A program made the position numbers and the translations under genes. This document shows positions 42,062 to 48,216 of a stretch of 64,000 nt of DNA, piece after piece. This stretch comes from Pyrococcus sp. NA2 (GTDB lineage: Archaea > Methanobacteriota_B > Thermococci > Thermococcales > Thermococcaceae), in the NCBI RefSeq assembly GCF_000211475.1, contig NC_015474.1:1488001-1552000 (forward strand), in the 5' to 3' direction. The notes under the pieces are model-generated. The model worked only from the letters and a program-made list of their open reading frames with translations, was not told the DNA's origin and did no database searches. The number at the start of each line of letters is the position of its first letter. Position 1 is the first letter of the stretch.

Positions 42062-42790
42062 AAAAGGCTGAAAAAGACAGATTTGTTACATCTATTGGCC
42101 GAGAGAATGATATCAGCTTTGAGGACTTCTCCTTAAGGTAGCCTTCGCTTGCTTGGTCAAGAGAAGCTCCAAAAGGCTTGTTGCAATTATTGGCTTCAGT
42201 ACTTACTCAGAGCTGATAAAGTATTCTTTGGCACACTTCAGAAGTATTGGGATCTTTATTTGGTTAATACTGCTTATCCTTTGCGGCTCCCTCGTTTCCT
42301 TGAGGAATCCTCTCTGCAAAGTTCCAGATCTATGGTTAGGAGAGGTAGAGCTCGAATTTCATCTTCTCGACATCGAAACCGGAATTAAGATATGCTCTGT
42401 CTCCGATGGAGTTCCTCAATACTTAGCGGACTACAATCCAAGAGGGAGAGTTAAGGAGACATCTCAAGATATTTTCCAATTCTTCGTAGCACGGCGAGGT
42501 TTTCAGAGAAAAAGATAAAGGAATAACCAGGATAAATGTTTAACTTCTGGTTCCGCTTCGTTATCGAGGAAATAGAACGAAGGAATTAATTTAGTTGCAT
42601 TCAACAAAAACCCTGTTTGTCGAAGTTAAGTGGAAAGAGCTTGGCGGAAAGAAGTTAGAAGGAGTTTTTAGAGAGAAAATCAAGGCTTTTGAAACTGAAT
42701 AACTGGGAGCGATCGCAAATAGAGTGAAGGAAAAAGAGGAGTTTGGAGTGAAAGATCAGTTTGTGTGGGATCTGGACTGTTTAAGGGCGA
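42062..42790 (+). pseudogene. Decayed STAND/Arch_ATPase gene with DUF234 C-terminus
   Basis: Fragments of one ATPase appear in order in different frames: FVTSIGRENDISFEDFSLR (42080-42136); KSS/KRLVAII where the Walker B DEFQ is disrupted, continuing in the next frame as YLLRADKVFFGTLQKYWDLYLVNT; then LILCGSLVSL...LGEVELEFHLLD and DGVPQYLADYNPRGRVKET; NFWFRFVIEEIERRN*; and VEVKWKELGG...ETE*LGAIANRVKEKEEF...FVWDLD, the DUF234 end. At least two frameshifts and two stops. It converges onto the intact ATPase at 42756. Confidence 0.7.
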
Positions 42791-43862
42791 ACTCAAGTAT
42801 GGGGTCGGTTATGTGATACGTTACATTCCTCCTATTAATCTTCTTTTCAATGAAGGATGCCTTTAAGAGCGAGTTAAGGAGCCTCGCAAGGATAGCATCT
42901 TCAACTTCCCTCTTCTCCCTTTTCTCAAGCTCCCTTTTTAGTTCACTCCAAGTGTTCTTACCAGAGGCTATGGCCTTGAGTATCGTAAGATAGCGCTTTT
43001 TAGCAAGGGGTCTCTTCTCAAGGAAGTGCTCGAGCTCACTTAAAGCAAGCTTGGAGGCTTCTTCAAGGACTCTCTCAATGACATTTTCCCTAACTCCCTC
43101 CTTAAGCGAGATGGCTCCGAACTTTACGAGCCAGCCAACTATCCCATCAAGACTCTCAACAGCCTTTTCAAGAACATGCTCCGGAGCATCAATGTTAGCC
43201 TGTTCAAATCCTTTTCTAAGGAAGTCCAAGCTTTGCTCCCTGGAAAACCTGGAAAGCTCTATCTCATGGAAGATTCTACCGTAAAGAGGCGCATCTGGAT
43301 CCTCAACACCGAGGAAGTCATGGAGAAGGCCGATTTCAGAGCCCGTAAGAATGAACGTCACATCACCATAGTCATAAAAGTGGGCTATAAGCGAGGCAAG
43401 CTCTCTTCCTGCTGGTCCACGAATTTCCTGGACTTCATCAAAGGCTATTACGAATCCCTCCCCCTCAAGTGCCGAGATTAATGAATACAACGTCTCTCTC
43501 TTCTTCCACGATAGTGAGACTCTTACTCCGGAAATACTAACACCATCTATGAGCTTCACCTTGTCCTTCAGCCTCGCAAAGAGTGTTGCGTTCCTTGATA
43601 GATACTCATTGAGTGCCTCTTGAAAGCGGAGATAAAGGTCACGCCTTGAATTTGGATTTACTCCTCGGAGATCAACTATGACGTGAGGAACATTAGCCTC
43701 GTTAAGAGCAACTCTAAGAAGGGACGTTTTCCCAAGTCTGCGGATTCCCTTGAGAACTATTAACGGCTTTCGTGAGTTAATTAAATTCAACAACTCTTTG
43801 AGTTCCCTCTCCCTATCATACAGATCCTCCCTCCTGCTCTTCGGCTTCTCATCGAAGTACAA
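42756..43862 (-). CDS. STAND/MNS-class archaeal ATPase with C-terminal winged helix
   Basis: 368 aa, paralogue of the protein at 1475-2557. Seen: LYDRERELKELLNL, Walker A VLKGIRRLGKTSLLRVAL, Walker B FVIAFDEVQEIRG, LTGSEIGLLHDFLG, APLYGRIFHEIELSRFS, and a C-terminal winged helix (TWSELKRELEKREKREVEDAILARLLNS) ending YHITDPILEFALKQS. I choose TTG 43862 (MYFDEKPKSRREDLYDREREL), which aligns with the paralogue's start and follows a GGGGTG box by 5 nt; the open frame reaches 44159 but would run through the regulatory boxes and the transposon relic. Role unknown; defence or element maintenance is possible. Confidence 0.75.
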   Translation of the reverse strand: MYFDEKPKSRREDLYDRERELKELLNLINSRKPLIVLKGIRRLGKTSLLRVALNEANVPHVIVDLRGVNPNSRRDLYLRFQEALNEYLSRNATLFARLKDKVKLIDGVSISGVRVSLSWKKRETLYSLISALEGEGFVIAFDEVQEIRGPAGRELASLIAHFYDYGDVTFILTGSEIGLLHDFLGVEDPDAPLYGRIFHEIELSRFSREQSLDFLRKGFEQANIDAPEHVLEKAVESLDGIVGWLVKFGAISLKEGVRENVIERVLEEASKLALSELEHFLEKRPLAKKRYLTILKAIASGKNTWSELKRELEKREKREVEDAILARLLNSLLKASFIEKKINRRNVTYHITDPILEFALKQSRSHTN

Positions 43863-43900
43863 ACTAACACCCCAACAGCATACTAACACCCCGATAGTTA
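43863..43900 (-). promoter_or_regulatory. Paired GGGGTG boxes before the second ATPase
   Basis: On the minus strand two GGGGTGTTAGT copies (cores at 43887-43892 and 43868-43873) have a 19-bp period, with weak dyads (ACTA...TAGT). The second ends 5 nt before the TTG start. The same period and core occur in front of the paralogue at 1475. Confidence 0.55.
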
Positions 43901-43964
43901 AAAGGATTTTGACTAAGGTGCTACAAAAAGATTGTAAGAATTTGATTGTGATAAAAGCGTCCAT

Positions 43965-44116
43965 TATCCCCGCCGTGGTCTTAGACGATAACCCCGAGCC
44001 GCCGGTAGGGGTAATGGGCCCAAGACCGGGCCCTCGGGCCGAGCCGAAATCGACGACGGGAGTAGTGAATGTTAACCCGTTGAAACCCTCGCCCTTCACG
44101 ACGGGGAGGAGGTCAG
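43965..44116 (+). mobile_element. Relic of an IS200/IS605-type element right end (omega-RNA-like)
   Basis: A block much richer in GC than its surroundings, running from CCATTATCCCCGCCGTGG to GGGGAGGAGGTCAG. The end, GTTGAAACCCTCGCCC followed by ACGGGGAGGAGGTCAG, resembles the conserved right-end hairpin of archaeal IS200/IS605 elements, where the tnpB 3' end overlaps the omega RNA scaffold. Here the stem is imperfect (TTCACGACGGGG). No tnpA or tnpB open frame remains. This is pattern recognition from memory, not an alignment. Confidence 0.5.
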
Positions 44117-44159
44117 TCACCAACCAACGAAATATAATTATGAAATGAGAGGGATACAA

Positions 44160-44406
44160 CTATTCCTGGGCCACAGACGTGAGAATATCAATATAAGCCT
44201 CTTTCCCTACCTCCCTCTTTATTTTGATAACTCCATCTTGATAACTAAAGTTCTTGAAAACTACATCTTTTTTTGACCTTCCACTAATTTTAGTTGTGGA
44301 ACGAAAGTAGTACCACTCGTTAGGTATCCGTTGGTTATCTACTACAAGTAGTGCAAATACTAGAGGCTATTGGGGTCGTTAGAAGGATAACAAAAACGAG
44401 AATCAT
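44160..44406 (-). pseudogene. Frameshifted small secreted or membrane-anchored protein
   Basis: From ATG 44406 the frame gives a signal-peptide-like MILVFVILLTTPIASS, then stops after a few codons. In the next frame the coding character goes on (VVDNQRIPNEWYYFRSTT, then a Lys-rich stretch and YIDILTSVAQE*) to the TAG at 44160-44162. A single-base change would join them. No family recognised. It lies downstream of the toxin-like remnant in the same direction. Confidence 0.45.
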
Positions 44407-44575
44407 GACAATATTTTTGGCATGTCTTTTCCTCCAGTTGATAGTACTTATTAGTGCCTAGTCCCCTAAATTCTGTGTAGTACTCTTCCTTCTGAAGTGC
44501 TCTCTTTAGTACTTCATCGGGGAATTCTCTGAGCTTTTTCCTCGTTCTTGAAGACTTTTAACTTCCAGTTTTAGG
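44407..44575 (-). pseudogene. Broken duplicate of the toxin C-terminal domain
   Basis: Encodes KVFKNEEK, then one base out of frame KLREFPDEVLKRALQKEEYY, matching VFRDERELREFLDEVVEKAL in the intact gene at 45211-46524. The DNA is also similar (AAGCTCAGAGAATTCC against GAGCTCAGAGAGTTCC). No start, no stop in frame, so a partial, decayed copy. Such scraps are typical of polymorphic toxin loci. Confidence 0.6.
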
Positions 44576-44576
44576 C

Positions 44577-45200
44577 TCAACGATTTTCTGAGTCGGGTCT
44601 CTTCCTGTATAATTCTATCACTTCATAATAGGACTCCCACAGGTAATCATAACCCTCAGGTTCTCCCGTATGTTTGATTATTATCCTCTCAATAACCGGA
44701 GCGTACTTTTCCAAGAATTCCCTGCTGATTTTCAGAACGTCCTCAATGAAATCTTTAAGAGGAAGCTCAACAACACCCTTATGCTTACCCTTATATTCTG
44801 GGCAGTCGGTGTAAGATAAAAGGTCATTACGATAATAAATCCTCGCAATCCTCCCGGTGGAACAAGCATAGTAAATGGCATTCCTCTCAACCGCTTGGTA
44901 TACAACAACCTCATCCCCCCTCAACTGAAACCCCTCTTTCTCAATATTCCTTTTATCAATCTTGGTTATTTTTTGAACATGCGGACTGTCCGGCTGTAGG
45001 AAATAATAACAAGCAGTTAACAAGTTCTCAAAAAATCCGTAAACATTCGATTCATCCCCTTCAAGTTCTCCCTTCCAGCAGCCTCCTATGATTAAGTGGT
45101 CATTAACAGTAAAAATTAAAAAGAAGGGATCAGGGGATGGAATATACCGCCCAAGGTCTATTTTCACCGTCAAGTGCTTCCCCTTTATTGTGATCCACAT
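44577..45200 (-). CDS. Candidate immunity protein of the adjacent toxin
   Basis: About 207 aa, cytoplasmic, no signal peptide; not recognised as a named family. It begins MWITIKGKHLTVKIDLGRYI and is mixed alpha/beta with several Cys and Tyr (YYFLQPDSPHVQKI, YYACSTGRIARIYYRND). It starts 10 bp after the toxin stop; of two ATGs (45206 and 45200) the second has better spacing from the GGTGATG ribosome site. Position directly behind a secreted toxin-like gene is the main reason to propose immunity. Confidence 0.55.
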   Translation of the reverse strand: MWITIKGKHLTVKIDLGRYIPSPDPFFLIFTVNDHLIIGGCWKGELEGDESNVYGFFENLLTACYYFLQPDSPHVQKITKIDKRNIEKEGFQLRGDEVVVYQAVERNAIYYACSTGRIARIYYRNDLLSYTDCPEYKGKHKGVVELPLKDFIEDVLKISREFLEKYAPVIERIIIKHTGEPEGYDYLWESYYEVIELYRKRPDSENR

Positions 45201-45210
45201 TCCCATCACC

Positions 45211-46524
45211 TTACTGCCAACCACCTTTCCCAGGAATAAACGTCTCAACAGCCCAACCCTTCTCTGGATACGCAGTCTTAAGCACAAACTTCCCATCCTC
45301 AAACTTGAACTCCAACCTAACAACATCAATCCCATCAACATTAACCCCAACCTTCTTAAGATCCACTGAAATCCTAAAGTTTGGTTTTGGCACTCCCTTC
45401 TTAAAGAATTTTTCTTGGTAATCCGGATCCTTGAGCGCCTTCTCTACCACCTCATCAAGGAACTCTCTGAGCTCACGCTCATCTCTGAATACTCTTGGCA
45501 ATTGTTTGGCCTCACCGTTCACTATTATCTTCTGCCCCATCGGCCAGAATGTCGTTATTCCCTCTTGTTCCATCTTATATCCCCACACGTGCCTGAGGAA
45601 TGCGTGGAGCAGTCCACTTTTCTCGTTCCCTTTCTCAAGGACAACTTTGTACTTTCTGCCGCCGTTCTCGACGATGAAGTATGATGATTTCTCTGCAAAC
45701 TTCTCAATCCCTTCCTTCACTGCCTTTATCGTTGCTCCATGCTTAACTGTCTCTTCAATTGCTTCTTTTGAGACGCCTGCTTTAACTAGATCGTCGAGAG
45801 CTTTCGCGGCTTCATCGCCGTGCTTGACGATATCGTCAAAGATGTGTGTGAATTTTTCAATTACCTCATCAGCATAATTTATAATTCCTGTCCTTTTGAG
45901 GATTCTGTAAATGTCATCCGTGACGCCAAACTTCTTGCCGAGCTTTGTGACGAACTTTATTCCCTCGTCACCGGGAATTGCGAGGCCGACAATGAAGAAT
46001 GTGCCCTGGCCAATACACTGAATTGAATCCACTCCGTATTCCTTACATGTCTTATAGGTATCATAAGCATCCCAGAGTGTTAATCCAACAACGACTATAG
46101 CCACTCCAATCTGAATAAATTGTGGTCTGACTTCTCCCTTAATTGATGCATAAGAGGATCTTGGTGTTAACCTTACCCATGAACTCATGAAAACGCCATT
46201 TCCGGAAATGATGCGTAGTTTAACGTAAATCGGTTCTCTGACGTTGAGAATTACCGCCACTTTCTTGCCCCAAGGCTTGAGCCTGCCGAGGTCAACTTCT
46301 TCCGCTACAACTTTCCTATCCTTGCTTATGAGGACTGTTCCATAACCACTTAGACAGTTTGGTGGAACATTCCAAGTTACGACTGCAATGTTGCCACTCT
46401 GCTCAATACTGTCGAGGTATATTGGATAGACACCGCTCTCCGACCAGGAGAGGGACAGGGCTGATGCTCCTGGTAGTGTTAATACTAGGAGGATAAGTAG
46501 GGCTCCAATCATTAGACGTCTCAA
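45211..46524 (-). CDS. Secreted polymorphic-toxin-like protein
   Basis: 437 aa. Signal peptide (LMIGALLILLVLTLPGASA), a beta-rich extracellular domain (residues 25-145), one membrane or hydrophobic segment (QFIQIGVAIVVVGLTLWDAY), a second hydrophobic pretoxin-like stretch with two Cys, an alpha-helical linker (residues 215-290), and a C-terminal domain with LLHAFLRHVWGYK, GITTFWPMGQKIIV, ELREFLDEVVEKAL and VVRLEFKFEDGKFVLKTAYPEKGW. The H...RH plus the TAYP ending resembles EndoU/BECR-type RNase toxins, but this is not proven. TTG 46524 follows GGAGGTG by 6 nt. It is followed by a candidate immunity gene. Confidence 0.55.
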   Translation of the reverse strand: MRRLMIGALLILLVLTLPGASALSLSWSESGVYPIYLDSIEQSGNIAVVTWNVPPNCLSGYGTVLISKDRKVVAEEVDLGRLKPWGKKVAVILNVREPIYVKLRIISGNGVFMSSWVRLTPRSSYASIKGEVRPQFIQIGVAIVVVGLTLWDAYDTYKTCKEYGVDSIQCIGQGTFFIVGLAIPGDEGIKFVTKLGKKFGVTDDIYRILKRTGIINYADEVIEKFTHIFDDIVKHGDEAAKALDDLVKAGVSKEAIEETVKHGATIKAVKEGIEKFAEKSSYFIVENGGRKYKVVLEKGNEKSGLLHAFLRHVWGYKMEQEGITTFWPMGQKIIVNGEAKQLPRVFRDERELREFLDEVVEKALKDPDYQEKFFKKGVPKPNFRISVDLKKVGVNVDGIDVVRLEFKFEDGKFVLKTAYPEKGWAVETFIPGKGGWQ

Positions 46525-46539
46525 TCTAACCACCTCCAA

Positions 46540-46868: not shown

Positions 46869-48203
46869 TCATTCTATCTCCTCCGCGAGAGGTGAGCCGT
46901 CCTCTACCCTTATTCCCCTGTTCAGCATGTCTCTGAGGTCCTTTTCTGGATCGTTTATGAGCTTCAAGTCGAACTGCTTCCTCAAAATTTCAAACACTTT
47001 CGGGGTTAAGAACTCAGGTGGCCTCGGTCCAATGTATATTCCCCTTATTCCCAAGTATAAGAGGGTGTAGAGGATTCCTATGGCTTTTTGCTCCATCCAC
47101 GATAACACTATTGAGAGGGGTAGGGAGTTCACGTCAACTCCCAATTCATTTGCCAATGCTATGGCTATCTCAATTATGGAATATACATTGTTGCACTGAC
47201 CAAAATCCATAAACCTTGGTATCCCCTCTATGTCTCCATAGTTCCTCCCGTTGTACCTGAACTTTCCACATGCCGCACTCAGGATTATTGCATCCTTTGG
47301 AATGATCTCGGTTAGTCTCTCATAGTAGCTCATCTTTGGATTTGGAACGTCACATCCACCGACAATGAATATATGCTTTATCTTCCCTTCCTTGATGAGT
47401 TCAACGAGCTTATCCTTGATCTCTAGTGTGTGATGGAATCCAGTCACTATCTTACCTCCTTCTCTTCTCTCCATCCTAGGCGTTTCTAAGGCCTTCTTTA
47501 TGACTGGTTCAAAATCATAGTCCCTGATGTGTGGAACTCCCTCAAGTCCAGCAATGCCAACGGTGAACATCCTGTCAGCATATGCCTTAGTTGGTTGCTG
47601 AACACAATTGCTAGTCCCCACTATAACCCCAGGAAACTCTGCGAACTCCTTTCTCTGGTAAACCCACGAACCACCCCAGTTCCCATAAAGTGACTCGAAC
47701 TTCCTCAGCTCGGGATACGAATGAGCAGGGAGCATTTCCGAGTGTGTATAGACTTTTACCTCATTCTCGAGTCCCATCTCCCTTATCTGCTTAAGTAGTT
47801 CATAGAGGGCTTTGTAGCTGTGACCAGTAACTAGGATTCCATGCCCCTCAACTGTCCCAGTCGGAACTTCGACGGGCTCGGGCCTTCCAAATGTCTCAAC
47901 ATATGCCTTGTCTAACAGTCTCATTGCCTCAAGATGCACCCTTCCAGCTTCAAGTATCATCTCCACGAATCTGTTCTTGTCAAAGTTCACATTCGTCAGC
48001 GTTGAGTAAAGAGCCTCGGCTAGGAAGTGGCCTATCTCGGGGTTATCGTAACCGAGTTCGAGGGCGTGATAATAATAGGCAGCTGTCCCTTTTATTCCAT
48101 AAATGAGGGCTTCCTGTAAAGAATTTAGGTCTGGATCCTTTCCACAGACTCCCCTAATGGTGCATCCTCCGGCTAAGCTCATCGAACACTGATTGCAGAG
48201 CAT
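46869..48203 (-). CDS. hcp: Hybrid cluster protein (hydroxylamine reductase)
   Basis: 444 aa Fe-S/hybrid-cluster enzyme of nitrosative or oxidative stress; it reduces hydroxylamine or NO. N-terminal cluster Cys: MLCNQCSMSLAGGCTIRGVCG. Hybrid cluster ligands: VEGHGILVTGHS, GTSNCVQQP, IVGGCDVPNPKMSYY, LSAACGKFRYN and DFGQCNNVYS. ATG 48203 is preferred to GTG 48212 because GGAGGTGA lies 5 nt upstream. A perfect TATGAC-GCGT-GTCATA dyad sits just before the ribosome site, and a divergent HTH gene with matching operators follows. Confidence 0.95.
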   Translation of the reverse strand: MLCNQCSMSLAGGCTIRGVCGKDPDLNSLQEALIYGIKGTAAYYYHALELGYDNPEIGHFLAEALYSTLTNVNFDKNRFVEMILEAGRVHLEAMRLLDKAYVETFGRPEPVEVPTGTVEGHGILVTGHSYKALYELLKQIREMGLENEVKVYTHSEMLPAHSYPELRKFESLYGNWGGSWVYQRKEFAEFPGVIVGTSNCVQQPTKAYADRMFTVGIAGLEGVPHIRDYDFEPVIKKALETPRMERREGGKIVTGFHHTLEIKDKLVELIKEGKIKHIFIVGGCDVPNPKMSYYERLTEIIPKDAIILSAACGKFRYNGRNYGDIEGIPRFMDFGQCNNVYSIIEIAIALANELGVDVNSLPLSIVLSWMEQKAIGILYTLLYLGIRGIYIGPRPPEFLTPKVFEILRKQFDLKLINDPEKDLRDMLNRGIRVEDGSPLAEEIE

Positions 48204-48216
48204 CTCCTTCACCTCC

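Follow-up and report, generated by a model that had tools for sequence, protein, structure and literature searches.

A pair of adjacent genes in Pyrococcus sp. NA2, encoding a predicted secreted protein (gene A) and its putative cytosolic partner (gene B), probably constitutes a polymorphic toxin-immunity system, judged by all the available sequence criteria. Several features of this locus, which lies in a stretch of 64,000 nucleotides (the window), and of its homologues in other Thermococcales bear on this assignment: 1) A conserved export or carrier N-terminus is joined to an exchangeable C-terminal domain (CT). 2) An immunity-like gene lies directly downstream and changes together with the toxin tip. 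3) Orphan toxin-tip/immunity cassettes occur in arrays, with up to 10 immunity paralogs in a single array. 4) An export signal, in the form of a signal peptide, is predicted by hydropathy and sequence pattern. An earlier note, made from the letters of the window, had taken the succession of secreted gene, immunity gene and orphan module for the mark of a polymorphic toxin locus, and this proposal is supported by the arrays, by the co-variation of CT and immunity gene, and by the swaps described below.

Domain architecture of the predicted secreted protein and its partner

The two genes and the principal elements of gene A are:

45211-46524, minus strand: gene A, secreted polymorphic-toxin-like protein of 437 aa with a TTG start, recognized from the open reading frame, its ribosome-binding site and full-length Thermococcales homologues
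46456-46524, minus strand: predicted signal peptide of gene A (residues 1-23), from hydropathy and a basic n-region, kept in homologues
45976-46119, minus strand: two hydrophobic helices of gene A (residues 136-154 and 165-183), with hydropathy peaks of 1.77 and 1.42
45211-45648, minus strand: C-terminal toxin-like domain (CT) of gene A (residues 293-437 and stop), which recurs in orphan cassettes and as the C-terminus of unrelated haloarchaeal giants
45589-45606, minus strand: H307-x3-R311-H312 motif, predicted active-site residues, from their invariance across CTs
45265-45276, minus strand: T417-A-Y-P420 motif, which would complete the predicted active site, from the conserved [ST]-x-x-P
44577-45200, minus strand: gene B, predicted cognate immunity protein (207 aa) that follows gene A at a distance of 10 bp, from co-variation with the CT tail, a structure model and a weak Foldseek match to CdiI

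Gene A is open from 46524 to 45211, and a GGAGGTG ribosome-binding site (46531-46537) stands 6 nt ahead of its TTG codon (46524). The encoded protein is laid out as a signal peptide, a beta-rich region, two hydrophobic helices, a helical linker and the CT, the last of these bearing the motifs HAFLRH (307-312), TTFWPMGQ (324-331) and KTAYP (416-420). Residues 5-23 have a mean hydropathy of 2.27, and hydropathy and sequence pattern together predict an export signal that is conserved in the homologues. The hydrophobic helices are likely to serve as a pre-toxin or membrane-entry segment. Searches of Pfam, NCBIfam and PDB sequences returned no significant match for gene A. In some full-length proteins (L062 1975-3870, L069 5650-6798, L073 7119-8036 and L081 5405-6961) the helical linker ahead of the CT occurs several times over, so that its length varies with the number of repeats.

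Gene B starts 10 bp past the stop of gene A and encodes an acidic protein (pI 5.6), devoid of any hydrophobic segment and predicted to be cytosolic, for which Pfam, NCBIfam and PDB sequences likewise hold no significant match. Its structure model (pLDDT 91.5, pTM 0.89) consists of two beta-sheet/helix halves. The best PDB matches of this model in Foldseek are all weak by TM-score. PUR-alpha is among them, and the CdiI immunity protein of Burkholderia dolosa stands fourth (E 0.007, probability 0.92), with a weak structural correspondence (TM 0.34-0.43, rmsd 9.1). The signal-peptide protein of modular layout and the unrecognised cytosolic protein 10 bp behind it, both pointed out from the letters of the window, are thus recovered as described.

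Distribution and organization of the arrays

Gene A is matched in 23 of 94 Thermococcales genomes and gene B in 22 of the 94, in three genera, so that about 22 of these genomes have the system, and the distribution of the family in this order is patchy; none of the 8 other Pyrococcus genomes has a homologue of either gene. Searching 115 genomes of the phylum with a profile revealed no additional group that has arrays. Homologues of genes A and B adjoin in the same order in many genomes, and their pairing is therefore more than a matter of chance. When 20 loci were read for their organization, most of them proved to follow one plan: on one strand, a full-length secreted gene is followed by an immunity-like gene and then by repeated units, each made up of the 3' part of a CT and a gene B paralog. 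The immunity-like copies number up to about ten per array, and several orphan CTs may lie in one array, as in L062 and L063. Every homologue of the gene A N-terminus that was found ends in the same CT family.

The surroundings of the window locus hold further features. A prismane (hybrid-cluster-protein) gene (46869-48212, minus strand) flanks the locus, and in the genome set only three other Pyrococcus genomes have this gene (L106-L108), each with different downstream genes, which marks a variable spot. A match to the HgcC-type noncoding RNA at 44014-44129 on the plus strand (Rfam RF00062, E 6e-5; its 33.6 bits fall short of the gathering score, which is 50) is antisense to the N-terminal extension of an ATPase open reading frame (42756-44159), which therefore probably starts further in.

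Linked exchange of CT tails and immunity-like genes

Over 40 adjacent pairs, the distances between CT tails follow those between the adjacent immunity proteins (Mantel r=0.84, whereas 10,000 permutations never exceeded 0.30). Under a stricter control, in which immunity genes were shuffled only within their locus and compared only between loci, the observed r=0.845 stands against a mean of 0.225 and a maximum of 0.730, with 0 of 10,000 permutations reaching the observed value. Among 14 full genes, the tail is correlated with the immunity protein (r=0.86, p=0.0005), and the N-terminus shows no such tracking (r=0.12, p=0.23).

Individual loci display the exchange directly, in that near-identical N-termini (96-97%) carry unrelated tails and immunity genes. 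L071 and L068 are 96% identical in the N-terminus, 29% in the tail and 18% in the immunity protein; compared with both L068 and L077, L071 has an N-terminus that is 96-97% identical and a tail that is 29% identical. Conversely, L071 and L075 are 100% identical in both tail and immunity protein, with a synonymous divergence (dS) of 0.13 in the N-terminus and 0 in the CT, from which it follows that the CT moved recently. The N-terminus itself is under purifying selection, with dN/dS of about 0.1-0.15, the value for gene A of the window against its Thermococcus homologue L077 being 0.15. Swapped C-termini with a matching change of the downstream gene had been anticipated among strains of Pyrococcus; no other Pyrococcus has the locus, but the expected linkage holds across Thermococcus at the correlations given above.

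Cassette boundaries within the toxin-like domain

The boundary between the expressed gene and the stored units falls at a definite place in the CT:

45530-45549, minus strand: cassette junction site TTCTGGCCGATGGGGCAGAA (coding for FWPMGQK), an imperfect palindrome (16/20); orphan cassettes of related arrays start within it or at most about 10 nt before it

In the full-gene profile the catalytic-looking residues are H34, R38 and H39, and most orphan cassettes start at profile positions 47-60, past these residues. With the junction inside the toxin domain, most orphans consequently lack the catalytic-looking histidines; three orphan cassettes retain the whole core. At the DNA level two boundaries recur: 1) Homology begins 12-18 nt ahead of the MGQ codon (ACNACNTTCTGGCC) in eight orphans. 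2) It begins at GGNCAGAA in six orphans, immediately behind the 3' end of the coding part of the immunity gene that precedes the cassette; the cassette then supplies, in another frame, the last residues and the stop of that gene. The sequence at the boundary, TTCTGGCCNWTGGGNCAGAA, forms an imperfect palindrome that matches at 20/20 positions in one cassette and at 16/20 in the window. The junction in L078 3529-3870 (minus strand; G071:C1:1257359-1257378) is a perfect 20-bp palindrome, TTCTGGCCCATGGGCCAGAA. This palindrome may be a codon by-product or coincidence of encoding FWPMGQK, or it may be a real recombination site.

The cores of main genes and orphans form, at several loci, direct repeats of about 70-130 bp with 75-87% identity, which is long enough for homologous recombination. 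We infer that a crossover at the junction would join a stored tail to the catalytic half encoded by the expressed gene, and that the immunity gene belonging to this tail would be transferred with it.

Behind gene B, the window holds the remains of one such unit:

44461-44590, minus strand: decayed orphan CT cassette whose tail is of class VLGYVWDREKQSG and which lacks an immunity gene of its own, with 77-89% DNA identity to Thermococcus array cassettes

This cassette overlaps the last codons and the stop of gene B. The segment 44461-44640 is 77% identical in DNA to L062 9348-9511, from a Thermococcus array, and the two are collinear through the point where immunity gene and cassette meet; its identity to other copies of the same cassette reaches 89%. 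The fragment KLREFPDEVLKRAL had been read in the earlier note as a broken copy of gene A's own C-terminal domain, which is right in so far as it is a genuine decayed CT cassette. Its tail class, VLGYVWDREKQSG, differs from that of the gene A CT, and descent from gene A itself is therefore rejected. A frameshifted secreted peptide had also been claimed at about 44160-44460, but its best match in the 94 Thermococcales genomes is 40 bp long at E about 0.001, which is chance level; the segment 44150-44460 has no credible homologue among these genomes.

Relatives beyond the arrays

Stand-alone secreted relatives of about 180 aa adjoin hisS in several Thermococcus genomes (CT profile matches at E about 1e-10 to 1e-16) and keep the catalytic-looking motifs of the CT (L092-L101, e.g. 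L097 3685-4233), one copy (L100 3872-4342) being without a signal peptide. No recognisable immunity gene was found near these hisS-adjacent members, and the CT domain hence need not always be a toxin.

Through one of the stand-alone relatives, tblastn searches reached CTs in haloarchaea. There the domain ends large secreted proteins of Halorussus caseinilyticus (NZ_CP119811.1, 1340 aa with TSP3 repeats, and NZ_CP119812.1), and it occurs as short genes in Haloprofundus and Natronorubrum. In Halorussus the CT is followed within 5 bp by a gene for about 170 aa; a gene of similar size overlaps the CT gene by 4 bp in Haloprofundus and lies 48 bp downstream of it in Natronorubrum. Two plasmids of a single haloarchaeal strain (L102 1314-5336 and L105 4417-6339) have nearly identical carrier regions, comprising TSP3 repeats and a helical segment, and differ in their CTs and downstream genes; this is a second, independent example of tip swapping. 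Alignment of the haloarchaeal and Thermococcales immunity proteins in hhalign gave P=0.0026 over 112 columns with a score of 26.4, against a maximum of 18.0 in 30 column-shuffles and a reversed control that comes near at 23.1; a distant relationship between the two is possible.

Predicted activity of the C-terminal domain

The H, R and H of H-x3-R-H are invariant in 22 full CTs. Among 13 sequences from two archaeal groups the R and the second H are invariant and the first H nearly so, and the invariant or near-invariant positions of this set comprise H-x3-R-H-x2-G, T-x-F-x-P-x-G-Q, P, G-I and [ST]-x-x-P-x-x-G. An early His and Arg-His combined with a late T/S that has an aromatic residue nearby resemble the arrangement in BECR and RNase A-like toxins, and the residue pattern on this account suggests an RNase of the metal-independent kind, be it BECR, EndoU or RNase A-like. 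For the RNase A-like CdiA-CT of Yersinia kristensenii the residues H175, R186, T276 and Y278 are listed (PMC9086364), and this domain and the bacterial EndoU toxins share with gene A an N-terminal catalytic His with an Arg and a late T-x-Y, for which gene A has TAYP. The Ntox41 signature '[RK]H, [KR], [ST]xxP' (PMC3482391) similarly resembles the RH...TAYP of gene A, and the BECR fold comprises an N-terminal helical segment and a meander sheet with S/T in strand 4 (PMC3482391). The spacing and the TxFxPxGQ motif, by contrast, are specific to the gene A family, which has no significant sequence or structural match to CdiA-CT or EndoU toxins, and the likeness is best described as resemblance short of membership.

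The AlphaFold model of the CT, built from a five-row alignment, is poor (pLDDT 63); it shows a helix with H-x3-RH, a further helix and three strands with TAYP on the last, and Foldseek returned no meaningful fold match for it. The window CT does not match EndoU_bacteria (PF14436), and two haloarchaeal members touch this family only at E about 0.06 (14 bits versus a cut-off of 25.3). Neither single sequences nor profiles gave a significant match to any known toxin family in Pfam, NCBIfam, PHROGs or PDB sequences, and searches of viral contigs found no match. The relationship to EndoU/BECR toxins that had been put forward is plausible on the motif pattern.

Proposed mechanism and alternative explanations

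Under the toxin-immunity reading, gene A would be exported by means of its signal peptide and would present or release the CT, which would then enter neighbouring archaeal cells and damage them, most likely acting as a metal-independent RNase through H307/H312, R311 and T417. Gene B would stay in the cytosol and block the toxin domain that it matches, so that producer and kin are spared. Of the CT, the presumed catalytic half is conserved, and the last 80-100 residues, as the presumed target of immunity recognition, vary and are exchanged together with the immunity gene. The downstream orphan cassettes would serve as spare units of 3' CT part and immunity gene, and recombination at the FWPMGQ site would join such a unit to the N-terminus and catalytic histidines, yielding a new toxin that comes with its own immunity. 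In the Pyrococcus of the window, what is left of the array would be a single working pair beside a decayed cassette.

Several points count against a toxin: no dedicated export or delivery partner was seen for gene A, the CT matches no known toxin family significantly and its poor model no known fold, the structural match of gene B to CdiI is weak, and the hisS-adjacent relatives keep the motifs with no immunity gene nearby. Gene A could instead act at the surface as a ligand whose tip varies, with gene B as its matching cytosolic partner or chaperone, in a non-toxic system of self/non-self recognition or adhesion; VARTIG, another hypervariable secreted module of Thermococcales, is without a recognisable toxin (PMC8416519). 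We regard this as quite improbable, because gene B, predicted to be acidic and cytosolic, could not read the surface tip of a partner, because the conserved half of the CT has the enzyme-like invariant residues H, R, H, T and P, and because the same domain tips the toxin-like haloarchaeal giants. The solitary secreted relatives conserved beside hisS would suit an extracellular digestive or scavenging enzyme, paired with a cytosolic inhibitor against mis-sorted enzyme and varying by ordinary divergence. Linked, horizontally swapped tails and inhibitors, and tandem orphan cassettes of the two, are not what an ordinary enzyme would lead one to expect, nor is the patchy distribution, and the probability of this explanation is very small.

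A further view concerns the window locus only, which might be a dead, non-functional relic of a family that is a toxin system elsewhere. A single pair left beside a decayed cassette, in a genus whose other genomes lack the family, could be so understood, but both open reading frames are intact, with ribosome-binding sites in place and all the invariant residues present, and the dN/dS of the gene A N-terminus against L077 points the same way, making a relic unlikely.

Relationship to known systems and implications

The toxin-immunity system proposed here shares with the bacterial polymorphic toxins, including CDI (CdiA/CdiI) and MafB/MafI, a conserved N-terminal carrier, a variable C-terminal toxin and an immunity gene directly downstream (PMC3482391, PMC9086364, PMC9970974), as well as orphan CT/immunity cassettes and the co-exchange of CT and immunity gene. 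It differs from them in several respects: 1) The gene A carrier is small (437 aa) and without filament repeats or a known secretion partner. 2) The Thermococcales N-terminal homologues found all bear one CT family. 3) The cassette junction lies within the toxin domain, leaving most orphans without the catalytic-looking histidines. 4) The host is a hyperthermophilic archaeon.

Weapons between archaea have been predicted, and the kind of system is already known, including in archaea. Archaeal polymorphic toxin systems, in which modular secreted proteins end in a toxin and have an immunity gene beside them, were reportedly surveyed by Makarova et al. (mBio, 2019); the Thermococcales family has the same make-up of secreted modular protein, C-terminal toxin and immunity gene alongside, and may be listed there, and the haloarchaeal TSP3-repeat proteins presumably belong to that survey. 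Neither the CT nor the immunity protein of the Thermococcales family is covered by a model in Pfam or NCBIfam. As of 2021 there was no experimental characterisation of archaeal polymorphic toxin systems (PMC8416519). VARTIG loci resemble the present ones in having a secreted first gene with a recombining C-terminus, shorter homologues of that C-terminus downstream, and a patchy presence in Thermococcales (PMC8416519). They consist, however, of large Ig-domain proteins, mostly with membrane proteins downstream and without an enzyme-like domain (PMC8416519), whereas gene A has 437 aa, no Ig-domain match in Pfam, an enzyme-like CT, and soluble, cytosolic partners. The literature searched contains no description of the gene A/B family, of archaeal arrays whose junction cuts the toxin domain, or of linked exchange between hyperthermophiles.

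It is possible, though on balance doubtful, that the arrays represent a dedicated cassette-switching weapon of hyperthermophilic archaea, in which tandem units of specificity half and immunity gene are bounded at both ends by one and the same short, imperfectly palindromic site, TTCTGGCCNWTGGGNCAGAA, within coding sequence; with the catalytic histidines confined to the expressed gene, the stored cassettes would be inert until recombination activates one of them along with its immunity gene. The gene A/B family offers a compact, testable pair, in which the domain measures about 145 aa and its partner 207 aa, with many natural variants for the mapping of specificity, and in view of the source organism the proteins should be heat-stable. 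With a catalytic half that stays fixed, a recognition half that can be exchanged and cassettes whose ends lie within the domain, this family would be a clean system for understanding how toxin specificity can change without loss of immunity.
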